From a virus: a stretch of 25,192 bases of DNA. The notes under the pieces were generated by a model. It worked only from the letters and a program-made list of their open reading frames with translations. It was not told the DNA's origin and searched no databases. The translations under genes were made by a program, and so were the position numbers. The stretch is from the IMG/VR virus record IMGVR_UViG_3300042731_006629, positions 1 to 25,192 of that record; one strand, given 5' to 3'. Positions 2,509-24,648 of the stretch are shown here, piece after piece (the first letter of the stretch is position 1; each line of letters starts with the position of its first letter).

Positions 2509-3708
2509 CTACCACCATTCTGTCGGCCTTCCGTCCGTAAACTCAATCTTTAGTGCGTCGATCGGATTTAGCTCGAATACGCACGGGTCGTCAATTACTT
2601 GTGTAATACTTGTTGTGGCTCCCGTTTCGGTGACCACAAAACTATCCTCTACTCCAGGTGCGCAGTCTCCAAGGATCATGTTGGTTTCAAAGTTACGCTC
2701 CTCCATAGCCTTTGACGGCCCACAAATTTTATTATCCGTGCAAAAATCTTCTACTTCGTCGGGCACATCCAGCACAATAAAAACCAGGCGAACGAGAACG
2801 TGGATGGGTCTGATCATCTCTAGTCTTTCAAGTATTTTTTGTAGTTTGTCAGAATCAAACCCGAACTCCCCGCCCTCGTCCAACAGGAAAAAAACTTCTA
2901 AATCTATTCTTGCAGCTCTATAGGGGAAGTCACTGGTTATGTGTTCATAGTATGCTGTTACATTATCGGTGGTTGTTGCTGGAAACGCTAAATTATATTT
3001 TCCGTTAGCGTAGTTTATACTGCCAGTACCACCATCCTTTGAAATTAAATCACCATAATTTGATGAGTAACGATCGTCATTGTCTCGGAAAACAACAGTA
3101 CCTGAACGTATTCTAATTGTTCCTGGTTTTATCGGAGTGTTTGATAATTGGCCAGCATAGTCAGTCAGACCAGAAGAACCAATAACCTCCGATACTTCCT
3201 CCGTTTCATACTGAGTTCTCCGATAATTATTATCAGCCTCGTTTAGGTCTTTCTTCCATAGTGGATATGGGATTGCCTTAAACCCAATCATTCGGTAAAA
3301 CACTTCCCAGCTTACCGGTGTTCCCTTATTTGTGTATAGTTCAAATATACTTTTGATGATTTCTCTTTTTGTTTCAACGTCGGCGTCTTCGAGTGGGTGG
3401 CCAAACGATCCAGCCATATAATCCAAAAACTCTTCCGGGCATGTATCCGGGTCAATTAGCGATAGTAACCCTTCAATCTCTTCTAAGCGTTTTGTCTCCT
3501 CCGTTTCAATTACGTAGAATAGGTTTTTGATCACCGGCATCATGCCTAATTCATTCCAGGTAGCACCGCTATTCCAGGTAAAATTTGGATCATTCCAAAA
3601 GTTAACCGGGCCTTGGATCGGGTTATCCAGATCCTCTTCGATAATCTTGGGGATAAGGCGCTTATATAATTCAGCTCGCAGGTTGTTGGTTAAATCACTA
3701 CTGGCCAT
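2509..3708 (-). CDS. Baseplate wedge / tail protein I (P2 gpI-like) with inserted beta module
   Basis: 399 residues from the chosen ATG. Residues about 10-155 match tail protein I: a helical region with RLIPKI, then IDPDTCPEEFLDYMAGSFG, then EIIKSIFELYTNKGTP and GFKAIPYPLW. gpI acts downstream of gpJ in the wedge and anchors fibres. Residues about 191-255 are an inserted copy of the module also found in capsid, sheath and gpJ. After it come ERLEMIRPIHVLVRLVFIV, as in gpI relatives, and a C-terminal extension with four cysteines. The longer start at 3720 has only a weak upstream GAAG; the ATG at 3708 has GAGG six bases upstream. The gene overlaps the gpJ-like gene by 11 bases, implying coupled translation. 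Confidence 0.75.
   Translation of the reverse strand: MASSDLTNNLRAELYKRLIPKIIEEDLDNPIQGPVNFWNDPNFTWNSGATWNELGMMPVIKNLFYVIETEETKRLEEIEGLLSLIDPDTCPEEFLDYMAGSFGHPLEDADVETKREIIKSIFELYTNKGTPVSWEVFYRMIGFKAIPYPLWKKDLNEADNNYRRTQYETEEVSEVIGSSGLTDYAGQLSNTPIKPGTIRIRSGTVVFRDNDDRYSSNYGDLISKDGGTGSINYANGKYNLAFPATTTDNVTAYYEHITSDFPYRAARIDLEVFFLLDEGGEFGFDSDKLQKILERLEMIRPIHVLVRLVFIVLDVPDEVEDFCTDNKICGPSKAMEERNFETNMILGDCAPGVEDSFVVTETGATTSITQVIDDPCVFELNPIDALKIEFTDGRPTEWW
2944..3138 (-). repeat. Shared virion beta module, copy in gpI-like protein
   Basis: The encoded segment has KPGTIRIRSG, then DLISKDGGTGSINYANGKYN, then LAF and AYYEH. This follows the order PGT/S - acidic Asp/Gly turn - GxIxYxxG - LxF - YY seen in the sheath, capsid and gpJ copies. 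It interrupts the gpI-like fold between two conserved gpI regions. Confidence 0.7.
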
Positions 3709-6625
3709 ATATATCCTCATCTAGCGGCATTTCTTCTAATGAAACGGTGGAGAACGACGGCATCGTTTGGTGATCAATCGGTATATCCTTGCAATTGGAT
3801 TCCATGAATGGATCATACCTTATCTGCATGGTTCTTCCAGTGGTAGATGGTGTTGCAATCAGTGTCTTGTAACGGCCACTACGGTGATCTAAGTATCCAT
3901 ATGGATAAAGCTCCCCAACATCACCGTGGAACCTTCCTAGATTGTCGGCAAAAATGTAAATATCATAGTCTGTTGTACCCATGATAAATGAACTAAAAGC
4001 AGTGTAAAGAAGTAAGGTCATCGGGGTTTTTTGTATCATAAAATCTTGACCGGCGGCTGCTTCTGGAGCTGAAACAAAATGTAGTGTCCCCGTTGATGGG
4101 CTTGCATCATGTGTTACTGTACTAACGAAACTTTTGTTTAAACTCTCCCCGTCGAGCTGCCCTTGGGAGCTGTCCCAGGCATCATATATAGTTACGCTAC
4201 TAGTTGTTAAATCTGATAAAACATATTTCGTCCTGCCGATGGCATCTTCTGTTGCCAGGTTTACTGCCGATCCACCACCGCCAGAAGCGGTTCTAACTTC
4301 ATAATCAAATTCTTTTCTTGAACCATCAGGCGCTTGGAGTAGTCGTCCATAATAAGTTGTTGTCGATACCGGCGGCGGGGTGGTGTTCCAGGTAAAATTT
4401 ACCACTCCCGTATCATAATCTATTTCACCGCCAGGTTGAACATCACCAACAATATTCCCCTCGCCATCGTCCTTGGCAATAATGTTTCCCCCAGGTTGTG
4501 TTCCATAATTGTCATAACCCCCAATGAAAACAACCTGGTATGGGGAATAGGGTAGAAACTCTTCTGGAAGAGTCAAATTTACCGTAATACCACCGCAAAT
4601 ACCAATAGGGCGGCGCTCAACTATCGGCTGAAATGATAGGATACCATCAATCTTGCTGTTCACTATCTCATGCGTTGCGCTACTATGCATATAAGCATAC
4701 GTTCTAGCTTCTGCGGTTATGTATGTAGTGTTGCTTGGCGGATCTGAAAAGGAAACGATAAAGTATCCAGTATCATAATCTATGATTTTGGTTGCTGAGG
4801 TATCTATGTCCCCTTGGAATCCATTACTACCATCGTCGCTAATTGTTTGTTCACCTGCTGTTAATTTGAAAGTTCCCGGTACAATGGTAGTTCCGTATTC
4901 GACAACAAATCTATCAGAAAACTCTACTGTAGCGTTGTCGCCCACACCCTTATCAATTGTTTCTAGTTTTGAACCGTACACTCTTGTAAGTGTCGCCAGG
5001 GATATATAGCGGTTTTCCATTATCTTCTGAGCAATTAGGGTTAAAGATAGGTCTTGACCAGGGATAACAAAGGTGGAGTTGAAATGTGTTTGTAGTAGCG
5101 TTGTAACTGAATCTACCACAGCGGCCGGCGTTCGATTGTTTGTTAGCTTTACTATAGCTTCAACGTCAAAATATATAATGGCCCCATCAATAATTTCTAC
5201 AGGGACACACTCTAACGCCCTGGTGCGCATGTGATTTTTAAGTGCCCGCTTTAATGGTGTCGACGGGGTGGTAAGCCTACCCGCCGAGTCCCGACTCCAT
5301 ACGGCAATTTCTACGGTATTCTCTTCTGGTACGGATCTCTTTAATTTTGCCGATGTAAATGTTGGTGATCCGTAAACGGGATCAGAGAACTTCTGGGAAA
5401 TTATATCAAACTCCGTTTTCGTTACAGCGCGTCTATTGGTTGTAGCAAATTTTGGTGCATTTAGCTTAACACTCTCCAATGTTTCTATTGGGTTACCGCC
5501 GGTACCTGCCTCATGGTTATATGCACGGACATTGATACTCGATCCAGATGGTAAATACCCACGAACATTGTAGTCCATCTCGCCGCGCTCTAAGTTACCA
5601 GCAACGCCACCACCAACGCGGTAGGCAACGGTAACTGTAGCACCATTAAGCGGAATTACTCCAGCATTTCCATCACCAAATTTTATTGCTACTCGTCCGT
5701 TACTATTATAAGTGGCCGTATACCTCTTTTGTGGACCAGATATCATATATATTACATCAATACTACTTTGATCCGTAGGGGCAGCCTCATGCTGTAATCG
5801 ACCAAATCTTATGATAGTTTCACCATCTGTAGTTTGTTCAGCTATAAATTCTTTTGGTGCGTCGGTGTAGTTTTCTACCTGTGACCACATTTCACCATTT
5901 ACATAAACAACTAAACAGTCCTCATCATTCGGGTCTATAATAGCATATTGATCTTCAAGAGTGACAACTTGATAGTCCAATCCAGTTCCGGTGAATATAT
6001 CCCTGCCCCTGGCTGTTCCTTCTATATTTATTAAGGAAGTTGCCTGTTTCCACTCAGCATCAAGGATTGTAACTACAATTGACCCCTGGATGATATTATC
6101 GCGCAGTAATTGAAAGGTTTGATAGGACGTACCGTCTGAGACAAAGGTATCTGTAAAGGATTCTCCTTCTACAAAGACAATTATGTCTTCAGTGGAATCG
6201 TCCGGCCAGGATGACTTACCGGCAGGGATAACATAGGTTTCTGCTGCCTCAAAAGTAAGATCGCCAACGGTTGCTTTTTCGCCTTTGTTTATTGTTATAG
6301 CCGCTACCTGCGGCGGACTTGGGTATAGGGTTACTGCTACCGATGCTGGAGTTGGGCGTTTTCGTTCATAGCCGAATTGTTTTGCATGATATCCTATCGC
6401 CTCTGGTAGATCGGCCAGTTCAGAAAATACATTTCTAGCAATCATATCAAGGTAGTATGAGCTTTGACCGTGTGAGTAGGCGACTACATCCAGAATAGCC
6501 ATAGCTATGTCGGTCTTAGTAAATTCAAGCCAGCTATTTGCGTAGCGGGCTTTTACTAACTGCATCATAGATGCGCGAACATTCTCATACGTTCGATCTG
6601 TATAGGTTATTTCTGGAGAAGTCAT
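3698..6625 (-). CDS. Baseplate wedge protein, gpJ / T4 gp6-like, with repeated beta modules
   Basis: 975 residues, far longer than P2 gpJ (about 300) and longer than T4 gp6 (660). The N-terminus (1-90: FTKTDIAMAILDVVAYSHGQ, YYLDMIARNVF) and the core about 290-560 (IKFGDGNAGVIP, VAYRVGGGVAGN, RRAVTKTEFD, TRALECVPVEI) match the Baseplate_J family, which builds the iris-like inner baseplate ring. From about 560 onward it carries copies of the module shared with sheath and capsid: clear at 560-644 and 709-760, weaker at 886-937, and possibly degenerate at 808-865. The gene starts after the gp25 stop with AGGA as ribosome binding site. The repeats make the C-terminal 400 residues look like an outward extension. 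The family assignment is firm; the role of the extension is not. Confidence 0.88.
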   Translation of the reverse strand: MTSPEITYTDRTYENVRASMMQLVKARYANSWLEFTKTDIAMAILDVVAYSHGQSSYYLDMIARNVFSELADLPEAIGYHAKQFGYERKRPTPASVAVTLYPSPPQVAAITINKGEKATVGDLTFEAAETYVIPAGKSSWPDDSTEDIIVFVEGESFTDTFVSDGTSYQTFQLLRDNIIQGSIVVTILDAEWKQATSLINIEGTARGRDIFTGTGLDYQVVTLEDQYAIIDPNDEDCLVVYVNGEMWSQVENYTDAPKEFIAEQTTDGETIIRFGRLQHEAAPTDQSSIDVIYMISGPQKRYTATYNSNGRVAIKFGDGNAGVIPLNGATVTVAYRVGGGVAGNLERGEMDYNVRGYLPSGSSINVRAYNHEAGTGGNPIETLESVKLNAPKFATTNRRAVTKTEFDIISQKFSDPVYGSPTFTSAKLKRSVPEENTVEIAVWSRDSAGRLTTPSTPLKRALKNHMRTRALECVPVEIIDGAIIYFDVEAIVKLTNNRTPAAVVDSVTTLLQTHFNSTFVIPGQDLSLTLIAQKIMENRYISLATLTRVYGSKLETIDKGVGDNATVEFSDRFVVEYGTTIVPGTFKLTAGEQTISDDGSNGFQGDIDTSATKIIDYDTGYFIVSFSDPPSNTTYITAEARTYAYMHSSATHEIVNSKIDGILSFQPIVERRPIGICGGITVNLTLPEEFLPYSPYQVVFIGGYDNYGTQPGGNIIAKDDGEGNIVGDVQPGGEIDYDTGVVNFTWNTTPPPVSTTTYYGRLLQAPDGSRKEFDYEVRTASGGGGSAVNLATEDAIGRTKYVLSDLTTSSVTIYDAWDSSQGQLDGESLNKSFVSTVTHDASPSTGTLHFVSAPEAAAGQDFMIQKTPMTLLLYTAFSSFIMGTTDYDIYIFADNLGRFHGDVGELYPYGYLDHRSGRYKTLIATPSTTGRTMQIRYDPFMESNCKDIPIDHQTMPSFSTVSLEEMPLDEDIYGQ
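3715..3718 (-). promoter_or_regulatory. Ribosome binding site that decides the gpI-like start
   Basis: GAGG on the mRNA, six bases before the ATG at 3708. The in-frame ATG at 3720 lies immediately around this site and has only a weak match upstream, so the shorter protein is preferred. Confidence 0.6.
3815..4948 (-). repeat. Shared virion beta module, two clear and one weaker copy in gpJ-like protein
   Basis: Copy 1 (about 4694-4948) has VPGTFKL, ISDDGSNGFQGDI and IIDYDTGYFIVSF. Copy 2 (about 4346-4501) has AKDDGEGNIVGDVQPGG, EIDYDTGVVNFTW and TYYGR. Copy 3 (about 3815-3970) is weaker: DNLGRFHGDVGE, YLDHRSGRYKTLI and IRYDP. Each follows the order DDGxGxLxGD, then IDYxTG, then a hydrophobic strand, then a Tyr-rich strand. 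Confidence 0.7.
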
Positions 6626-14088: not shown

Positions 14089-17061
14089 CTAGCCTAACGG
14101 TGCCACTTCGTCAAAGGAAGTGGTCAACGGAGTATGGATGAGTTGGAATTCGATTTCCTCCGCCGGCTGTTTAAATTGGATGAATACCTTACACACAAAT
14201 TGCCTTGCGGCAATCACATCTGCCGTGTTGGTTGTGGCGTCACAAACTACACGATAATTCTCTATCCCACGCTTCCGCTTGATAGGTTCAAGAATACCAC
14301 GCACCATTGACCGCGCCTCTCTCCACAAAACTTCATCGTTGATTTCAAAAGGTAAATACCTACCTTTTAAGATGAGTGCGTTTGCAATGAGATTGGTAGT
14401 CCACCTTGTGGACAAAATGTCAGTAGCCGTTGCTTCTCTGGCCATTGTCGAGTGGCCATAGCAGTATAGCCCAAGGCCAGCAAAATCAACAAAGGAGTTC
14501 ACAACCTCTATTCTTGTGCCATTTAATCCAGAAATAGCCGCACGTTGGGCCTTATCCGGAGAGTAGCGGATTTCTACAACATCGTCAAGATCACCCCGCC
14601 GCAGACCGGCGATAGGAAACCACGCTTCAAAATTCCTTTCTACTCTTCCAAGTAGAGCAGCTACTTGTCCTTCTCCAGGCTCCCATACTTCAGCATCGAC
14701 ATATTGATCGTAGTACTTTGTCCACGGGAAGATGGTGAACATGTGAGAAGAGTTGATAGTAGCGAGCGGCGGATAAGGAATAAGTGCCGTCGGTACGGCG
14801 ACACCACCGGGCGTTGCAGCGTTGTATTCGCCATTGGTGAAGTCGCGTGCATCATATGGATTTTCAAAATCAGGTATAGAAAATAACCATACGGCGTTTC
14901 TTCCTTCAGATTCGGAAAGTTCTTGACCAGCAAGCTGTACTTGTCGGTGCCACATACCAGGAGCACTCAAAAAGTGAACTGGGACGGTTTCCGGATTGGA
15001 AAACAATTGAAGTCCGGTATAAGACGGGCCTACATGCTCACCAATTACATCGGCCATAGTGAAAGCGCCATCCATGCCGAGTTTTTGTCCGAGGCTGGAA
15101 TCGTATGAAACATCCAGCTCACCAGTAACACCAGTCTCTTCAATGGTAACATAGTCAGATCCATTGGTAGCATCATTAACAGTTTCTACAACTTTAGCTA
15201 CAGTAGTTAATGCATTGAATGTTTCAACGGCGGTGGCTCCAGAGCCATTATTGAACATAACACGAAACCGATACCATTGATCCGCTGGGTTTGTAGTTGG
15301 AGTATTCGGATCTTTATCCAACCAGCAGAAAAAGCCGTCGGTTATGGTGGTTCTTTCATTCCCTATATCACCACAGTATTTGCAGGTGGTATGGAGAACG
15401 ATTGAGTCGTAGTATATTTGGATAGGGAAACCGAGTGCCGGCGCTCCGGTAAACGTCAAAGTGTATGCCCCGGTGTAGTAGTTTATTGTTCCAGACCCAC
15501 CGGCACCGGTTAAAGTACCATCACCATTGTCGGTAAGCGTCGCTCCCGACCCGTGAACAACGACCACCGATCCAATTTTTATCGGGTATTCGTTCAGTGT
15601 CCCTGTGAAAGCTGTTTCTGAAGCATCACCAAACTCAGCTACAGTTGTATGGCGGAAAACCGTTTCAAACGATCCAGCATTTTCCAACCCAGGCACATGA
15701 TCACCAGTAGGGGTTAAGGTAAAAACAAGTGTCCATGCCCCTGTTTGATAATTTATCGTACCAGCAACTTTATCACCAGCAAGAACGCCTGAGCCATTAT
15801 CAACTGCCGTCGTCTTGAAGGTGGCCATAATAGGCTCTAGGTTCTTAACATTACTAGTGAAAGTTACAGCTATTGCGCCAGAGGTGTAGTTTATCGTGCC
15901 AGACGAAATATCACCAGAGAGGTTGCCGTCGCCGTCGGTGTCGGTTGCAGTCATGGCAGCGTTGGCGGTACTAACTGTGGATATAGAAATACTTCCAGGG
16001 ACAATCGGCCCGCCGACAGTAACGGAATAAGCCGCCGTTAATCCGTCGCCGATATCAAGTTGATCCTCCCGTGGCATATAGATGGTAATATACTCTGGTC
16101 GGGAACCATATCGAGAAAGCGTTCCTTCGTAATTGGTGGTGCCGTCAGAGGCGCTTCCAATTATCTCATATGTGCCGGCGTAATACGTAACCGTCGTCGC
16201 CAACGTCGGCGCAGCCGCAAAAGTTAACGACCACTCTCCAGTTAGGTAATCTACAACACCAGTACCAGAAACAGATCCGGTAAGAACACCGTGCCCGTCG
16301 TCGGTGAATGTTTCGGTGCCGTCGGCTACTGTCATAGTTCCTGGAGCAATGTACCTTCCCTCGCTACCAGAATAGGACGTAGTTGCCGACGCCGCAATAG
16401 TATAAGACCATAAATTCTGAGCGCCGATGCCGCCGGTAGATGAATCTGATCTCGTAGACGCGAATGCGCCATCGTCGCCGCCGGCAAGGACAAGCGGAAC
16501 AAGCTGGCCAGTTGTGCTATTCACGGTAGAATCTGGAAATGTCGTTCCCGCGCTTGCGTGCAGTGTGGCATTAATATAGTTGGAATTATTGTTTATCGTA
16601 GTTTCGACGTTTGAGTTCGTCACGTTGTCAAACCGTTCCACACGGACTCCGCGAAAGTACACCCACACGTTGTACGACGATGTACTATTATGGGTGATAT
16701 TTACTTTGATATCGGTGTTTCCCCATGTACCGGATGACTTAGCATCGAAGCGGATAAAATCTACCTCGGTGCCACTTATAGATTTTCTCTGAACAGCGTA
16801 GGCGGTACTCAGTAGTGTTCCTGCAATCCTGACAACTTTTAGCTGGTTGCCATACTTTAGGTATCTGATCCCGGCACGCATACAATACTGATTATTTACT
16901 GGCCGGCCATGATAGTTGACGAAGTTTCCAGGGTCGGTAAACGTAGTCAACTGATCTGTAGGCCCCTTTGCCATTGGCCCGATGATACCGAAAATGGCAG
17001 AACTGCCACGCGGTAGGTACGCCGCCAGGTCATATTCAGTAACGGTTACACCTGCTGCCAT
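14089..17061 (-). CDS. Tail sheath protein, T4 gp18-like, greatly enlarged by inserted modules
   Basis: 990 residues from the chosen ATG, against 659 for T4 gp18. The N-terminus (VTVTEYDLAAYLPRGSSAIF, GPMAKGPTDQLTTFTDP, NYHGRP) and C-terminal third (FLSAPGMWHRQ, IAGLRRGDLDD, ISGLNGTRIEVVNSFVDFAG, EINDEVLWREARSMVRGIL, YRVVCDATTNT, FIQFKQPAEEIEFQL) match contractile sheath proteins. Residues about 239-552 hold three full and one partial copies of the module shared with capsid and baseplate; these should project from the sheath surface. After them is CKYC at 560-563 with another Cys near 579, a possible small metal site. An upstream in-frame ATG would add nine residues but has no ribosome binding site; AAGGAG sits six bases before the chosen ATG. 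Confidence 0.93.
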   Translation of the reverse strand: MAAGVTVTEYDLAAYLPRGSSAIFGIIGPMAKGPTDQLTTFTDPGNFVNYHGRPVNNQYCMRAGIRYLKYGNQLKVVRIAGTLLSTAYAVQRKSISGTEVDFIRFDAKSSGTWGNTDIKVNITHNSTSSYNVWVYFRGVRVERFDNVTNSNVETTINNNSNYINATLHASAGTTFPDSTVNSTTGQLVPLVLAGGDDGAFASTRSDSSTGGIGAQNLWSYTIAASATTSYSGSEGRYIAPGTMTVADGTETFTDDGHGVLTGSVSGTGVVDYLTGEWSLTFAAAPTLATTVTYYAGTYEIIGSASDGTTNYEGTLSRYGSRPEYITIYMPREDQLDIGDGLTAAYSVTVGGPIVPGSISISTVSTANAAMTATDTDGDGNLSGDISSGTINYTSGAIAVTFTSNVKNLEPIMATFKTTAVDNGSGVLAGDKVAGTINYQTGAWTLVFTLTPTGDHVPGLENAGSFETVFRHTTVAEFGDASETAFTGTLNEYPIKIGSVVVVHGSGATLTDNGDGTLTGAGGSGTINYYTGAYTLTFTGAPALGFPIQIYYDSIVLHTTCKYCGDIGNERTTITDGFFCWLDKDPNTPTTNPADQWYRFRVMFNNGSGATAVETFNALTTVAKVVETVNDATNGSDYVTIEETGVTGELDVSYDSSLGQKLGMDGAFTMADVIGEHVGPSYTGLQLFSNPETVPVHFLSAPGMWHRQVQLAGQELSESEGRNAVWLFSIPDFENPYDARDFTNGEYNAATPGGVAVPTALIPYPPLATINSSHMFTIFPWTKYYDQYVDAEVWEPGEGQVAALLGRVERNFEAWFPIAGLRRGDLDDVVEIRYSPDKAQRAAISGLNGTRIEVVNSFVDFAGLGLYCYGHSTMAREATATDILSTRWTTNLIANALILKGRYLPFEINDEVLWREARSMVRGILEPIKRKRGIENYRVVCDATTNTADVIAARQFVCKVFIQFKQPAEEIEFQLIHTPLTTSFDEVAPLG
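15406..16347 (-). repeat. Shared virion beta module, array in tail sheath (three full, one partial copy)
   Basis: Copy A (about 16177-16347) has IAPGTMTV, FTDDGHGVLTGSVSGTG, VVDYLTGEWSLTF and TYYAG. Copy B (about 15817-16002) has IVPGSISIS, DTDGDGNLSGDISSGT and INYTSGAIAVTF. A shortened copy (about 15718-15819) has VDNGSGVLAGDK and TINYQTGAWTLVF. Copy C (about 15406-15582) has IKIGSVVV, DNGDGTLTGAGGSGT, INYYTGAYTLTF and IYYDS. Confidence 0.85.
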
Positions 17062-17067
17062 TATAAT

Positions 17068-17073
17068 CTCCTT
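17068..17073 (-). promoter_or_regulatory. Ribosome binding site that decides the sheath start
   Basis: AAGGAG on the mRNA, six bases before the ATG at 17061. It overlaps the stop of the tail terminator gene and lies inside the nine-codon extension of the alternative start at 17088, which argues for the shorter protein. Confidence 0.75.
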
Positions 17074-17770
17074 ATTTTTCTTCGACAACGGTGACAGTTA
17101 TTGGTTCCCCATCTTCAGTGTATACTTCGTAACGTATTTGATGGACGAGAGGAACCGAGTATGGCTGATAAGGTAACCAGCCGTGCAAAACACAACTTAC
17201 TGTGTGTCTTATATCCTTTTGATCGAGTGTAGTCTGAGTTACCGTGCTATTGTCAACTACATTCTCGTAATTTATTCTGCTCTTCTGCTGCCCAAGATAT
17301 TGAGCAAATTTGAAAACATTGTTTGGCGGTTGATACCACCTGGAGTCAGCAAAGTCTATAGTTATCCAAGCCTTTTGCAACCTAAACAGCGATTGCAATT
17401 GGAATAGTAAAAAATTTGCCTGGGCCAAGTCTATTGTGTATATATTTACATCAACCCCAGATGTAACAGCTTGGGGTTTTTGAACAGCAACACCAATCCC
17501 TTCTTCTGGTAGTAGTGGTATTCGATAATGCGACGGATTATTTAACGCTGTGTCAGGAGTAAACGGCTCACGCCAGATGGCGATAAATGGGTACGGGATA
17601 GAAGTGGCACCAACAGCTTTACTTCTATCAACACCCCTATTTTTCTTTAACCACTGTTGTGCTTGGGAGTGTGCTCTATCAGCACCTCCCTTAACAACAG
17701 GGACAGGAGCACCGTTCCATTTTAATTGACCAAAGAACCTGATTAGTGCATCGTCGTAAATATCAAACAC
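17072..17770 (-). CDS. Probable tail terminator / neck protein, T4 gp15-like
   Basis: 232 residues, directly upstream of the sheath gene, as gp15-type terminators are in T4-like clusters. The N-terminus (IYDDALIRFFGQLKWNGAPV, then PVVKGG) and the motif IPYPFIAIWREP at about 58-69 recall gp15, where an early 'RR..' helix is followed by a 'rvPIxYa' strand. The C-terminal strand DIRHTVSCVLHGWLPYQPYS resembles the ...ieftl.v.gWlypp.. of gp15. The role would be to cap the tube and sheath and join them to the neck. It starts at GTG, five bases after AGGAG. The similarity is from remembered patterns and modest; a plain neck connector is the alternative. Confidence 0.45.
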   Translation of the reverse strand: MFDIYDDALIRFFGQLKWNGAPVPVVKGGADRAHSQAQQWLKKNRGVDRSKAVGATSIPYPFIAIWREPFTPDTALNNPSHYRIPLLPEEGIGVAVQKPQAVTSGVDVNIYTIDLAQANFLLFQLQSLFRLQKAWITIDFADSRWYQPPNNVFKFAQYLGQQKSRINYENVVDNSTVTQTTLDQKDIRHTVSCVLHGWLPYQPYSVPLVHQIRYEVYTEDGEPITVTVVEEK

Positions 17771-17778
17771 ATAAACTC

Positions 17779-18957
17779 CTATGAGCTAAATACTACATAA
17801 ACGTCACCACTTAAATCTTCTGTTCCACCAGAGGTTGCCCAAGAACCATCAGATGTTCCTTGTCCACCGATATACTGCCCAGCGACAAAACTGTACCCGG
17901 CAGTTCCGTACGCAACCGCTGCGTAGTTTTCGGTTGTATGTGTTGAGTTATTTAATTGGATATCCAAACCGGTTGGGGTAACAGCCGTGCCATTTATTGA
18001 TGGCTCAAACGTAAAAGTACCTCCGGTACATGCTTCAGTAGATGCTATTGTAGATGAAACAATATACCCCGGCCTTGGTGCTAGGTAACCATTTCTAGCA
18101 CCACTTTGGTCTTTCATCTGAAAATTTGACGTACTCGCCGGGAACCCTCCGCGATAAATAAAACTGTACACTGGAGTAGCCCGCGCTAAGTCACTCTGCA
18201 CAAGAAATGGGTTAGTAGCTGACGGTGAATTAGCGGCATCAGCCGCCGCCTCTTGATCAGCGGTTAGGTGATAATACTCGGTTGAACCGTTACCGCCCTG
18301 TAACCCCGATAGATTATTGTGGGTGGTTACGCTTCCAAATACCGACCATGATGTATTAAATATGTAAAGGGCGTCCTGATCTTCAACCCAAGTTGCCCAC
18401 CCCTCATTAGGGGATTGTCCGGTTGTTGATGAACCATCGTAAGTGTATATTTCGTTATTCGCCGTATATGTTCCGCTGTTCCCGGTAGTGTCGGTTCCGC
18501 TATTTTTAAAGATATACCTATCATTTGTTGTAGCTGCCGTTCCCGCATCCCAAGATCCACCGGACTCCTCATATAAAACATTATCAAAGGTATTTACGCA
18601 TTTTTCCCCTGTGGACGGTGTACCAGTTGGAGCACCGGTTGTAGTTTTTACATAATTTACATTATGCGTAACGCTATCTTGCCAATCCACACCTTGTTTT
18701 AGCTGATCCACATACTGTTTATCCGCAACCGGGTTGGAAGCAGACAACGCGTTTGGAGCGTTCGCTAGTGCTGCTGTTTGGTCAGTTGTAGGAACTCGCG
18801 GATCGGTTGTTGTCATAAAGACATTAGTACCGTCCGGCGATCCATACGAACCGGCGTTAGCAGCTTTTTCATCTGTTGAATTGATTAATAAATGGTCAAA
18901 TGATATATCTGGCGTTGGACTTCCATTTAATAATCTAAAATAATTATTAGCAGCCAT
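17779..18957 (-). CDS. Fibre-like virion protein (candidate collar whisker or head fibre), longer paralogue
   Basis: 392 residues, fibre-like throughout. Residues 60-85 have ALSASNPVADKQYVDQLKQG, a widespread phage fibre linker motif (NPva.K.YVD). Residues 212-235 have HNNLSGLQGG followed by EYYHLTADQE, another common fibre motif. The C-terminal domain (about 282-392) has FEPSINGTAV and YSFVAGQYIGGQ and is paralogous to the two domains in the gene before it. Lying between neck genes and the tail terminator, not with the baseplate fibres, suggests attachment to neck or head, as with T4 fibritin. AGGA is spaced six bases from its ATG. A baseplate fibre encoded out of place cannot be excluded. 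Confidence 0.6.
   Translation of the reverse strand: MAANNYFRLLNGSPTPDISFDHLLINSTDEKAANAGSYGSPDGTNVFMTTTDPRVPTTDQTAALANAPNALSASNPVADKQYVDQLKQGVDWQDSVTHNVNYVKTTTGAPTGTPSTGEKCVNTFDNVLYEESGGSWDAGTAATTNDRYIFKNSGTDTTGNSGTYTANNEIYTYDGSSTTGQSPNEGWATWVEDQDALYIFNTSWSVFGSVTTHNNLSGLQGGNGSTEYYHLTADQEAAADAANSPSATNPFLVQSDLARATPVYSFIYRGGFPASTSNFQMKDQSGARNGYLAPRPGYIVSSTIASTEACTGGTFTFEPSINGTAVTPTGLDIQLNNSTHTTENYAAVAYGTAGYSFVAGQYIGGQGTSDGSWATSGGTEDLSGDVYVVFSS
17782..18114 (-). repeat. INGT-type beta domain, single copy (collar-fibre family)
   Basis: C-terminal about 110 residues: GYIVSSTIAS, then FEPSINGTAV, LDIQLNN, YSFVAGQYIGGQ and VYVVF. The order of motifs equals that in the two domains of the neighbouring 329-residue protein (KPTINGT, a Leu/Val-rich strand, an F-(V/S)-AG-x-x-(I/L)-G motif and a final hydrophobic strand). 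Confidence 0.65.
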
Positions 18958-18981
18958 ATTTCTTCCTACATAACAGTGCTT

Positions 18982-19971
18982 TTACACATAACAAATCATC
19001 ATGTTAGCCCTACAGCTTACTGTCGGGCCGAAAATTGCATTTGTTGCCCCTTGAAGACCCAATAAACTTCCAGCGGAAAAGAAAAACGCTGGGTCTTTTG
19101 CTTCAGATGCATTATCGTATTGGGGATTTCCAGTATTGAAAGTCAAATCAAGACTGGTATCAACTATTGGCGTTCCATTGATTGTTGGTTTTATCACCAT
19201 CTCTCCAGAGGTGCAAACAGGGAAAAGCAGTGCAGAGGTGGCTGAAAAGTAACCGTCCTGTTTTGCTACGATGCCATTACCTATGCCGCCTGTCGGCTTT
19301 ATTACTGCCGTAGTATTTGCTGGAAAATACCAATAACCAAAGTCATACGTAGCATACCTATCACCATAGTCACAGATATAATCAAGTTTGCAATACAGCA
19401 TTACTCGGATATCTACACTGGCCGGTAGTGTAGCGGCATCACCAAATGCCTGTGCACCTATAGTATTTCCAGCCACAAAGTCAAAAGCAGAAATTGGTAT
19501 AGTTAATGTGGCCGAGTTGTGCTGCGGGCTTCCAGGAGAAGGAGCGAGTCTAACATTTAGTAGCGACGAAGTAGCTACCGTACCATTTATCGTTGGTTTT
19601 ACATCAATAAAACCAGCAGTTAATGGTGTAGATACGGTAACATCCATAGATATTATTGTTCCATCTATCGTTGCTGGCGTTTCATCAATAATTCCCGACC
19701 GTTCTCTAATAGTAGTAGCTGTTGGTACAGTGGTGTCATAAATATAGCGCACATAATCATACTCAGAGTACATATTATTTGCACTACCACCGCTACCGAT
19801 CGGTTCCCAAGTTAAAGAACCTCCGATGTATACTCCTGCTGTCGGCCCTGTGGTAACATATAGAATTCTACCAGTATAACTGGCGTCCCATGTAGGAAGA
19901 GATGCTACCTGTTCTAGTTTTAAGTTGAGCGCTTCAAAAAGCGAACAATTTTGGTTACCACTCCACAACAT
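18982..19971 (-). CDS. Fibre-like virion protein with two copies of the INGT domain
   Basis: 329 residues. The N-terminal 60 residues (SLPTWDASYTGRILYVTTG, then VYIGGSLTWEPIG) show the GRi.Yvt...gvyiG...W pattern of phage fibre or virion-surface proteins. Two tandem domains follow. The first (about 84-194) has DVKPTINGTV and FDFVAGNTIGAQ; the second (about 222-328) has VIKPTINGTP and FFFSAGSLLGLQ. The same domain ends the neighbouring gene's product. There is no signal peptide or membrane segment. It begins with GGAG five bases before ATG and stands right after the neck genes, so collar or head-surface fibres are inferred. The INGT motif could also be a carbohydrate-contacting loop, but nothing in the sequence proves this. 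Confidence 0.55.
   Translation of the reverse strand: MLWSGNQNCSLFEALNLKLEQVASLPTWDASYTGRILYVTTGPTAGVYIGGSLTWEPIGSGGSANNMYSEYDYVRYIYDTTVPTATTIRERSGIIDETPATIDGTIISMDVTVSTPLTAGFIDVKPTINGTVATSSLLNVRLAPSPGSPQHNSATLTIPISAFDFVAGNTIGAQAFGDAATLPASVDIRVMLYCKLDYICDYGDRYATYDFGYWYFPANTTAVIKPTGGIGNGIVAKQDGYFSATSALLFPVCTSGEMVIKPTINGTPIVDTSLDLTFNTGNPQYDNASEAKDPAFFFSAGSLLGLQGATNAIFGPTVSCRANMMICYV
18988..19722 (-). repeat. INGT-type beta domain, two tandem copies
   Basis: Copy 1 covers about 19390-19722 and copy 2 about 18988-19308. Shared motifs in order are KPTINGT, a hydrophobic strand (LLNVRL / LDLTF), a Pro-Gln-x-Asn turn (SPQHNSA / NPQYDNA), an F-x-AG-x-x-x-G motif and a final strand ending in a Cys-containing hydrophobic run (VMLYC / MMICYV). 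Confidence 0.75.
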
Positions 19972-19985
19972 AACTTCTCCGGACG

Positions 19986-20711
19986 TTATTTAATTTTCTG
20001 TATTGCAGATTTAAGCGCACGCGCTTTTACTGCCTCACCCAACTTTTCCAATTCCAACTTTAATCGGCGCATTGCCGGTCGCCAATGAGGTCGAGTAGGC
20101 AATTTAACAGTAACTTCCTTCCCGTCTTTTTTTACCACAACGCTTCTAGCACCGAATTCGTGAGCTATGGCTATTGTTGATAGCGGGACTTTCGTTTCTT
20201 TGTGTAACCGATTCGCTACGGTAACTACATAATAAGTCCCCTCGTTCGGGTCTTTTCTTTTCCGAACAACAATTCCGTTTACGTAATCGCCAGTTGCAAG
20301 TAAAATTCTAGGGTCGCGCTTTCTTTTAATCTTCCTTTTTAAATACTTTTTTCTTAATGGACGGTGTATAAAGGGGAACCTTTCCGCTATAGGTTCGGGT
20401 GTCTGTCTGGGCTGTATATAGTTTTTTCTTCTTTTAATTAGATCCGGTTCTATTCGCTTTTGTTCATCAGGGATATCGGGTATCTCTTTTGGATTTTTCT
20501 TTTCTCGATACAGTACTGGCCTTCCTAGTTCGGGAACCTGGGCAAGTAGTTTATCTATTATGTAATCCTTAAGGCTATAGGCCAAAATACGTAATTGTAT
20601 AGCAGTAGCTTCAAGGTATTCTTTCGTATAGTCAAGGATGAAAGGGTTTACCCTCTTCACCTTAAAAGTTCTGTTTCCTATATTTACCGTAGATACTACT
20701 TTTAGTGCCAA
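19986..20711 (-). CDS. Head-tail joining / tail completion protein, HK97 gp10-like
   Basis: 241 residues. C-terminal motifs match the HK97 gp10 / P2 gpS / Mu gpG virion morphogenesis type: TGDYVNGIVV (140-149), YYVVTVAN, IAHEFGAR (182-189) and LPTRPHWRPAMRRL (204-217), the i.EFGt...PaRPf.r.a pattern. These proteins bridge the neck and tail terminator. Between about 60 and 135 there is a long, very basic proline-rich insertion (RPLRKKYLKRKIKRKRDPR), unusual for the family and possibly contacting DNA or an acidic capsid surface. The start is TTG, within the last ten bases of the preceding gene, with GGGG seven to eight bases upstream; no better start exists nearby. Confidence 0.6.
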   Translation of the reverse strand: MALKVVSTVNIGNRTFKVKRVNPFILDYTKEYLEATAIQLRILAYSLKDYIIDKLLAQVPELGRPVLYREKKNPKEIPDIPDEQKRIEPDLIKRRKNYIQPRQTPEPIAERFPFIHRPLRKKYLKRKIKRKRDPRILLATGDYVNGIVVRKRKDPNEGTYYVVTVANRLHKETKVPLSTIAIAHEFGARSVVVKKDGKEVTVKLPTRPHWRPAMRRLKLELEKLGEAVKARALKSAIQKIK

Positions 20712-21977: not shown

Positions 21978-22691
21978 CTAATAAATTGGTTTCGCCGGCA
22001 TGTGTCTTAAGTTCTTGTCCAAATTCTCTTTTAATTCCCGTATTGCCGCCTCGCCTTCGTTTTGAAGTTCTGAATAGTCAACGGTGATGCTGCCGGCAGC
22101 AGCGGGGATTGGGCCAAACTTTCTAAGTTTTCTCGCTGCGGCCAGTTTTGCATAACCAAGACATCCATCTAAGAAGTCTGCTTCCAGGTGAAACGGGATG
22201 TGCTCTACGGTCATCGGAGTCAGTATTAGAGCTTTAGCTAATATATTTGCTGTAGTATTTGTTTCGATCATCAATAATTTAGTAGTTTCGTTCCACCGGA
22301 AAACGGGTTTAGCCCCCAAAAAGTGAGCATACCTATCGGCGGCGACCGCTTGTTTAAAATACCGACGCGGGCCGCGATGTCCCATATACCTCTCTAGGAA
22401 ACTTGACCGATAAAGAGGATGATCGAAGTTATTCTCCGAATCTTGTGTACTTACATCAACAACACGGGTTCCATCAGGAACATCTAAAGTTACTTGATAA
22501 GTGCCGGTTATTCTGCCAAGATCATACCACAACCAGTTCGGGCGGTATTTATTAAAAAGCATTAAGCATCGTTTGATTGCATGGTCAACATCGCTGTCGA
22601 TGAGTTCCACACTAAATCCTTCTCCGCCTAAAGACATTCTAATATTCGACCGCCACTCAGCTAGTGTTTTTTCGCTGGCTGTGGTTTTCAT
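21978..22691 (-). CDS. Probable neck protein, T4 gp13-like
   Basis: 237 residues. The N-terminal region (about 12-58) has RSNIRMSLGGEGFSVELIDS followed by DVDHAIKRCLMLFNKYRPNW. This follows the gp13 pattern in which a R..LG helix is followed by v.vEl.d..ld.ai..al..y..Y. The middle has beta strands (TYQVTLDVPDGTRVVDVSTQ) as in neck connectors, and FLDGCLGYAKLAAARKLRKF begins a helical C-terminal part. gp13 binds the portal-proximal neck. The gene has a strong ribosome binding site (AAAGGAG, six bases before ATG). The pattern match is from memory. Another head-tail connector type is the main alternative. Confidence 0.5.
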   Translation of the reverse strand: MKTTASEKTLAEWRSNIRMSLGGEGFSVELIDSDVDHAIKRCLMLFNKYRPNWLWYDLGRITGTYQVTLDVPDGTRVVDVSTQDSENNFDHPLYRSSFLERYMGHRGPRRYFKQAVAADRYAHFLGAKPVFRWNETTKLLMIETNTTANILAKALILTPMTVEHIPFHLEADFLDGCLGYAKLAAARKLRKFGPIPAAAGSITVDYSELQNEGEAAIRELKENLDKNLRHMPAKPIY

Positions 22692-23220: not shown

Positions 23221-24648
23221 TTACAGGTTAATCGCCGTGTAGGTACCCATCATTTGGGAATTCACTTCGTGGATGGTGTACTCGGTCAACATGGCGACAT
23301 CCTTGCGAAGTCCTTTCTGGTGAACAGGAGAGCGGTAGAAAGGAATATAAGTGGCCAAAACAGCCGCCGTATTGACAATCCCGTCACCTTTGTAGGTTAA
23401 CATACCTGACGCATCCGGGAACGTCGGGTCTGCAATACAGGTGATGTTGTGCATAGAAAGAGTACCAGATTTCACCGGCCCAGCCATAGAGTCCGACTTC
23501 ATCGGAGCACCTTCTGATTGAAATCCCCTGGTATACTGTAGCAAGAACCAGGTGTCTGGAGAGTGAACCAGAACATTCGGACGAACTCTCTGGGTGTTCT
23601 TCCAAATTTCGTGCTGGGTTCTGGCCAGCAGGATACCGAAGCTATCTAGGTGATCACGGTAGGTGATCCCAGTGGGAGTAGCATTGTCGAAAACGAAGCT
23701 ACCACCGGAAGCTACCCGACGCAGGTGGTTGACCACATGTTTAAAGCGTTCGGCATTGATAATTTTGGAGCCGGCATCTAATATGGTAGGCTCGGCGTCA
23801 ATCCCCCAATCGGCGGAAAGATCCATAGTAGATTGGATACTCCACTCTGCCATGAGAGCACGCGGTTGTGCTTCTACGGTGACAGATCGAAGGGCGATGC
23901 CATACTTCGGCAGCTCCAGGGCCATTTCTACATTGTAACCATAGCTGATTTTCAGTGGGCCAGTTGTGGTTCCAGAAGTTACCAGACCCATAGCTCCGGT
24001 AACATAGTTGATGGTATTCGTGTAGGAACCGGTTGGCGATCCGACGTCGCCGATGAGATTTCCATTCCTGTCATCGTATATTTTCAGGTTGCCATCAGTG
24101 ATCTCAACAGAACCAGGTATTACCGTAGTGTAGGCCGCGGTTCCCAAGTACTGAGTACCACCGGACGCTCCTAAAGGCTCATTGTTTACGCGATGGGATG
24201 AAAAGTCATCGGTGCCGATGAATCCTCTCAAGGCGTCAAACACTCTGGTGCCTACCGGAAGTGCGCCCTTGGATTTTTCGGTTTGGATGTCCAAGTAATG
24301 AATTCTTCCAGATCTACTCGGTAGTGGTTGTTCGGAAATAACCAGTCCGGTAAGATCCTCGGCGATGGAGTAGGTAATCATGGCTAGGCTGTTTTTTATC
24401 CACCTGGGGATATTGGCGCGGGAAGTTTCCGTCAGGTCAGCCATCGTCTTCCTGACAAAGTTGTCGCACATAATGGCGGCGTAAGTTTTGGTATAGTCAT
24501 CTGCCTCGGCCAGAGGAGCAAGTACATTGCTTGGTTTTTTCCAATCAAAGTCTGGCATGGAAAAATTCTGGAAGCTTTCAACCAGTCCCTTGTGCCGATT
24601 TATGAGTTGATTTACCTCTGGGTAGTTGTTTGATGCTGTTTTTAACAT
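23221..24648 (-). CDS. Major capsid protein, T4 gp23-like, with inserted beta module
   Basis: 475 residues (T4 gp23 has 521). It forms the HK97-fold hexamers of the head. Segments matching gp23-type proteins include AEDLTGLVISEQPLPSRSGR leading into IHYLD (about 96-120, the Q-P-...-P-T-G-L-x-Y region) and AEWSIQSTMDLSADWGIDAE (267-286, like the YSIELAQDL..iHGldA motif). Residues about 168-239 are an extra module shared with sheath and baseplate proteins, at a point where gp23 has its own inserted domain. No clear protease cleavage site can be named, though head-protease processing is known for gp23. GGAGGT lies five bases before ATG and overlaps the end of the scaffold-like gene. Confidence 0.85.
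   Translation of the reverse strand: MLKTASNNYPEVNQLINRHKGLVESFQNFSMPDFDWKKPSNVLAPLAEADDYTKTYAAIMCDNFVRKTMADLTETSRANIPRWIKNSLAMITYSIAEDLTGLVISEQPLPSRSGRIHYLDIQTEKSKGALPVGTRVFDALRGFIGTDDFSSHRVNNEPLGASGGTQYLGTAAYTTVIPGSVEITDGNLKIYDDRNGNLIGDVGSPTGSYTNTINYVTGAMGLVTSGTTTGPLKISYGYNVEMALELPKYGIALRSVTVEAQPRALMAEWSIQSTMDLSADWGIDAEPTILDAGSKIINAERFKHVVNHLRRVASGGSFVFDNATPTGITYRDHLDSFGILLARTQHEIWKNTQRVRPNVLVHSPDTWFLLQYTRGFQSEGAPMKSDSMAGPVKSGTLSMHNITCIADPTFPDASGMLTYKGDGIVNTAAVLATYIPFYRSPVHQKGLRKDVAMLTEYTIHEVNSQMMGTYTAINL
23932..24147 (-). repeat. Shared virion beta module, copy in major capsid protein
   Basis: LGTAAYTTVIPGSVEITDGN, then IYDDRNGNLIGDVGS, then INYVTGAMGLV and KISYGYN. It keeps the order PGSVxI - DDxxGNLxGD - INYxTG - hydrophobic strand - Tyr-rich strand. 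Confidence 0.8.

Follow-up and report, generated by a model that had tools for sequence, protein, structure and literature searches.

Two neighbouring genes that share a repeated domain

The window, i.e. the whole stretch of 25,192 bases from an uncultured virus record that we analysed, carries T4-like structural genes on the minus strand. In minus-strand order these encode the capsid protein, an Ad2/gp13-like protein, a Neck1-like protein, two proteins that we call A and B, a presumed tail terminator, the sheath, the tube, a hub-like protein, the tape measure, the baseplate proteins and, last, the fibres (Table 1). A and B are adjacent on the same strand with 24 nt between them. In the tight run from the Neck1-like gene through A and B to the presumed terminator the gaps measure 8-24 nt, and a ribosome-binding-like sequence precedes both A (GGAG, Shine-Dalgarno-like) and B (AGGAAG). 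The earlier note had named the two flanking genes a neck gene and the tail terminator. The first name finds weak backing in a match to phrog_222, whereas the second derives from the place of the gene before the sheath, searches of Pfam/PHROG-type libraries having returned no family match for its product. Orthology of the neck genes with those of Listeria phage LIS04 and Streptococcus phage GXN1 was not shown (hhalign probability 0.5, 2.0 and 0.1%), so the apparent insertion of A and B between Neck1 and terminator relative to LIS04 is a description of gene order alone.

Table 1. Features of the window discussed in the text. The A13 profile includes the three window copies as rows, for which it gives E 5e-32 to 4e-26.
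Feature	Position	Strand	Basis
T4-like major capsid protein	23221..24648	-	phrog_138, E 1e-14
Ad2/gp13-like neck protein	21978..22691	-	phrog_211, E 2.7e-7
Neck1/tail-completion-like protein, upstream neighbour of A and B	19986..20711	-	phrog_222, E 2.5e-4, weak support
Protein A, 329 aa	18982..19971	-	ORF list; ~60 aa N-terminal part and two tandem INGT jelly-roll domains (fold predicted)
INGT copy 1, in A	19375..19776	-	A13 profile, E 6.9e-27
INGT copy 2, in A, C-terminal	18985..19359	-	A13 profile, E 4.4e-26
Protein B, 392 aa	17779..18957	-	ORF list; fibre-like N-terminal and middle region, C-terminal INGT domain
NPVADKQYVD string in B, residues 75-84	18706..18735	-	string match
NLSGLQGGNGSTEYYHL string in B, residues 215-231	18265..18315	-	string match
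INGT copy 3, in B	17782..18177	-	A13 profile, E 5.2e-32; modelled
Presumed tail terminator, downstream neighbour of A and B	17072..17770	-	position only
Tail sheath	14089..17088	-	phrog_23, E 1e-47

A and B share one domain of ~125 residues, the INGT domain, present as two tandem copies in A and as a single C-terminal copy in B. Pairwise local scores of the three copies are 105, 111 and 130, and none of the 1000 shuffles made for each pair reached the observed score (top shuffle score per pair, 65-69). BLASTP aligns A with B at E 3e-11 and 7e-9, and the pattern G-x13-T-x-G-x5-P-x-INGT occurs exactly three times in the window, with 0 occurrences expected. A profile scan of the window record found no fourth copy. 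The claim of the earlier note that one beta domain occurs three times in two adjacent proteins is thus borne out, although the copies are nearer 125-130 residues than the ~110 first given.

Both of the strings that had been read as fibre linkers are indeed present in the longer protein, starting at residues 75 and 215 of B; the first, NPVADKQYVD, is a putative linker of this kind. EYYHL was absent from 15,966 fetched ORFs. With its N-terminal and middle regions followed by a C-terminal domain, B has the fibre-like architecture originally proposed for it. Neither A nor B has a PHROG match, and B scores 16.7 bits against DUF2793, below the cut-off of 27.

The window holds other repeats. Four virion proteins contain inserts of a second repeated domain (DGNGxLxG..GTINYxTGAxxLTF, phrog_6128-like): the capsid protein, the sheath (several copies), and the products of 3698-6625 and 2509-3720, a gp6-like wedge and a tail-protein-I-like protein. 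At the corresponding place, a similar stretch is present in the capsid proteins of LIS04, GXN1, phiXF1 and Colly_1. By eye, the putative short tail fibre at 104-1261 bears a run of HSH/HTH motifs, which we presume to resemble the metal-binding tips of T4-type fibres.

The INGT family and its predicted fold

No family in Pfam, PHROGs, NCBIfam or the cultured-phage records searched covers the INGT domain. A tblastn search of 50,697 phage records gave no relatives for A, B or three family relatives, and a single weak match for the middle region of B (Roseobacter phage, E 5e-3). Direct searches of IMG/VR viral contigs with A, B, the capsid protein or the three-copy alignment, and of genome contigs with the three-copy alignment, returned no relatives either; the PDB searched by sequence contained none (best E 0.52), and no INGT domain lay nearby in a sheath-based set of 80 loci. 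Relatives were reached through degenerate DNA pattern scans of IMG/VR. The pattern G-x13-T-x-G-x7-INGT picked out at least 119 stretches in viral contigs, and a profile of the three window copies, run on the ORFs of these stretches, recognised at least 12 contigs at E <= 1e-6 (best 9e-15); by itself this profile detects other family members with E down to 1e-15. Used as a seed, an alignment of five relatives yielded 67 loci in viral contigs and three in MAG contigs of bacteria, which bear the labels Omnitrophota, Anaerolinea and Nitrospirota. In the relatives tested, the domain has no PHROG match, and Pfam matches are absent or far below the cut-off. The INGT module is an undescribed family, absent from the libraries searched and common to capsid-adjacent proteins and fibre tips. 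Eight phage records, cultured or named and either related or T4-like, all lack it, and hence there is no orthologue of known location. A literature search for TNF- or C1q-type phage capsid or neck domains returned nothing directly relevant. In a domain tree the three window copies group together; the tree has long branches, mostly capsid-adjacent rows and no support values, and we drew no conclusions from it.

A model of the copy in B, built from a 58-row alignment, is all-beta, with pLDDT 87 and pTM 0.81 (a 3-row alignment gave a pLDDT of only 38). The best Foldseek matches in the PDB were C1q-like domains, the exosporium protein ExsFA, Pam1 capsid chain H and the KHP40 trimeric cement protein, with E from 1e-4 to 1e-3 (for the TNF/C1q-like jelly roll, E 1.3e-4 and probability 1.00). 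The VIA comparison aligned the model with 4-1BB ligand (Z 8.6, rmsd 3.1, 115 residues aligned), the phi812 central spike knob/petal (Z 8.4, rmsd 3.0, 119), chain A of the cyanophage A4 portal-tail complex (Z 8.4, rmsd 3.4, 121), the KHP40/KHP30 trimeric cement proteins (Z 8.3, rmsd 3.0-3.1, 105-108) and the carbohydrate-binding domain (CBD) of the A-1(L) short tail fibre (Z 7.7, rmsd 3.4, 118), rows that are tied within 1 and whose highest Z is barely above the usual background of unmatched models; Pam1 capsid chain H followed (Z 7.0, rmsd 3.4, 113). Sequence matches to the INGT domain are absent from KHP30/KHP40 cement (7dn2, 7dou) and Pam1 (7eel_H), as well as from the cellular proteins of the same fold class (the C1q/TNF family, BclA and ExsF). 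Going by the model, the domain belongs to the TNF/C1q-like jelly-roll class and presumably forms a homotrimer, and the predicted fold alone favours neither capsid nor tail. The nearest predicted structures in BFVD that have names are annotated, for instance, as minor tail proteins, tail fibres or collagen-like proteins; none of the best 50 matches listed is named a decoration protein.

Genes around the relatives

The relatives are mostly stand-alone proteins of ~145 residues encoded directly downstream of the major capsid gene. In the seeded search the INGT domain lies at most 100 nt downstream of a capsid-protein match in 57 of the 67 loci, a count biased towards the context of the seed, which is itself capsid-adjacent; ORFs were taken from stop to stop, and a few of these gaps are hence negative. 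The distance is 1.0-2.2 kb in four loci, and six lack a capsid match: four of them start less than 200 nt from the end of the locus, and the other two encode large spike/fibre proteins. Among seven upstream proteins tested, four match Phage_capsid (PF05065) and six a PHROG major-head family, the seventh (L270) having no match in Pfam or PHROG. The next downstream gene with a family match encodes a head-tail adaptor (phrog_442) in L101 and L169. Two consecutive INGT genes occur in 5/67 loci, so duplication of the domain is not peculiar to the window.

The 12 contigs listed from the looser scan, with L095 placed through L254, comprise nine copies near a capsid gene, two spike/fibre tips (a pectate-lyase spike in L162, and L104) and one contig too short to place. 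Taking all searches together, the domain forms the C-terminal tip of a spike or fibre in a minority of the relatives: L162/L271, L104, L159, L122, L274 and L279. L136 and L209 had been read by eye as DUF2190 capsid cement, a reading that we dropped when Pfam did not confirm it. The record of L175 has, besides its capsid-adjacent INGT protein, a second and weaker copy within a protein of 228 aa whose gene follows the tail genes (L307:7650-8333).

A stricter pattern, with a conserved proline added, was scanned to completion for a sample with less bias than the seeded one; it gave 25 stretches, of which the three-copy profile accepts 12 at E <= 1e-6 (duplicates: L139/L320, L131/L197 and L318/L319). 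Six follow the capsid gene directly (L101, L196, L201, L316, L318 and L319) and four come one or two genes after it (L109, L139, L320 and L131). L197 is a 6.6-kb contig without a capsid gene whose protein is identical to that of L131. No known spike domain marks any of the 12 as a spike or fibre tip, in a sample whose pattern selects a subtype and may disfavour such tips.

The last of the 12 is L321. Its record of 38,210 bases is T4-like (terminase, portal, protease, capsid with phrog_138, Ad2 neck protein with phrog_211, sheath and tube), and its INGT gene lies between the capsid and neck genes. This interval contains the genes for PhoH, for proteins of 618 and 421 aa (the latter matching a head-decoration family, phrog_3018, E 9e-8), for a 206-aa protein tipped by the INGT domain and for two collagen-like proteins called tail fibres by PHROG, as well as two genes of auxiliary-metabolism-like type. 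The INGT match is modest, at 34 bits for the A10 profile and 1.3e-9 in a second search. Of the cases found, L321 resembles the window most closely and speaks for a head/neck reading, though tail-fibre-like genes share the interval.

Two further observations concern the capsid side of these loci. Proteins with lipoprotein-like starts (...CRQTPTPEPT or ...GCSPRENICFNC) are encoded between the capsid and INGT genes in L109, L139 and L131 (L304:9388-10020), at least two of them consecutively in L139. L196 and L316 have capsid polyproteins of ~915 aa (L196:3545-6298 and L316:2-2737) that join, in one frame, a 2'-5' RNA ligase/LigT-like domain, head-protease matches and the major capsid domain; the LigT-like Pfam match is above the cut-off in L196 only. 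A packaged 2H phosphoesterase would be unusual.

Possible place of A and B on the virion

As fibre genes beside neck genes, A and B recall T4 fibritin (wac), the analogy drawn in the earlier note. It does not hold as homology: fibritin is a coiled coil, whereas A and B are beta-rich and unrelated to it in sequence (crude heptad scores 0.53 and 0.42 versus 1.0 for wac; best similarity about -1 bit), and they lie downstream of the gp13-like gene, whereas wac is directly upstream of gene 13. We therefore rejected A and B as fibritin homologues. Fibritin is described as evolving by exchange of its C-terminal modules, Ig-like ones included (PMC3797505). The C-termini of A and B are INGT domains. 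The T4 order, 12-wac-13, also demonstrates that a baseplate fibre gene can adjoin neck genes. Conversely, the neck-fibre genes of the myophage A-1(L) are reported to lie far from its other structural genes (PMC10966104), so such genes need not sit near neck genes. Position alone is thus a weak guide both ways.

That A-1(L) fibre, gp82-gp81-gp80, is described as a trimeric chain of globular beads made by three small adjacent gene products (PMC10966104). Its genes are remote from the structural genes, whereas A and B lie within the capsid-neck-sheath run. The distal bead, gp80, matches the family profile faintly (8.0 bits, a score matched by 2/5000 shuffles and 18/15,876 background ORFs; hhalign probability 2.8%), and gp81 and gp82 have no profile match; this resemblance may be a lead but is not proof. 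In its account of gp80, the same paper describes a carbohydrate-binding module and reports no host binding (PMC10966104), so a receptor role is not to be assumed. Other collars offer further parallels. The Milano collar protein gp13, numbered next to neck 1, is described as having two jelly-roll-like domains and no helices (PMC10491603); it forms disulfide-linked rings without fibres, unlike the fibre-like A and B, and the likeness is one of description. The NPS of lactococcal 936 phages, encoded upstream of mtp and located at the neck by immunogold (PMC4759559), is an accessory whisker protein whose gene is inserted between those for head and tail; it comes from siphophages, and the comparison with A and B is by gene place only. 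In XM1, trimeric collar spikes are described as bound to the head-completion and terminator proteins (PMC10457771).

The reading that we favour, with a probability of roughly 0.6, is that A and B are virion appendages of the head-neck region, on the collar or on the capsid surface near the portal vertex. Since the INGT domain is mostly encoded beside the capsid gene elsewhere, A and B are probably head/neck appendages rather than ordinary baseplate fibres, and their place inside the capsid-neck-sheath run of the window supports this. The head/neck association proposed in the earlier note thereby gains support from the capsid-adjacent relatives and L321, support that stops short of proving a location on the particle itself. 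The INGT unit would be a trimerising TNF/C1q-like jelly roll. In most relatives found it makes up a small head protein by itself, from a gene beside that of the capsid, and this protein plausibly decorates the capsid. In the window the unit would have been duplicated to give, in A, a protein with two beads and, in B, the globular head of a fibre with a stalk. We infer that the N-terminal parts of A and B may attach to rings of the neck or capsid as the virion assembles, leaving trimeric knobs to point outward, as two beads in each chain of A and as one stalked knob in B. The knobs could reinforce the head-tail joint or reversibly contact surfaces.

A and B could instead be fibres attached to the baseplate or tail, with jelly-roll receptor-binding tips and an accidental place between neck genes and sheath. 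We consider this unlikely, though it is a serious candidate given that in T4 the baseplate fibre gene 12 adjoins wac and 13 and that the closest predicted viral structures, in the best 50 listed, are mostly tail proteins where they have names. In other records C-terminal INGT copies form the ends of fibres and of a pectate-lyase spike, the CBD of the A-1(L) short tail fibre matches the predicted fold, and the architecture of B resembles that of a tail fibre. Yet the window already has a separate fibre set after its baseplate genes (104-2505), most relatives found are head-module genes, and the INGT gene of L321 lies between capsid and neck genes, even if beside PHROG-named tail fibres.

A third reading is that A, with its tandem domains and little stalk, and perhaps B, is a cement covering the whole head as in KHP30 or GP4. 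Stand-alone relatives occupy the usual place of cement genes and the predicted fold matches KHP30/KHP40 cement; cement trimers of GP4, KHP30 and Pam1 are described at three-fold axes (PMC9698820). We nevertheless find this improbable for proteins that are larger and stalked, tandem or fibre-like members of a neck cluster, unlike the stand-alone relatives, and whose genes lie ~3.3 kb and five genes away from the capsid gene rather than next to it; the capsid protein of the window has, moreover, another inserted domain of its own. A non-structural role for one or both proteins, or one as mere assembly aids for fibres, is very improbable: although no homologue with a proven virion location emerged from the 50,697 phage records and eight named records, the domain occurs as part of spikes and in late structural gene runs, and A and B lie close-packed among genes for virion proteins, each with its own ribosome-binding-like sequence.

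Beyond the favoured placement of A and B as head-neck appendages, a wider picture can be put forward tentatively. One exchangeable trimeric jelly-roll module might serve as capsid decoration, head/neck appendage and receptor-binding tip of spikes in unrelated phages. The T4-like lineage of the window might have captured such a module from capsid decoration, then duplicated and stalked it into a two-protein, bead-chain neck fibre as in A-1(L). Defining the family provides a sequence route to head/neck appendage genes of uncultured phages that are otherwise orphans, and the window offers a testable case of a capsid-type module turning into a neck fibre.
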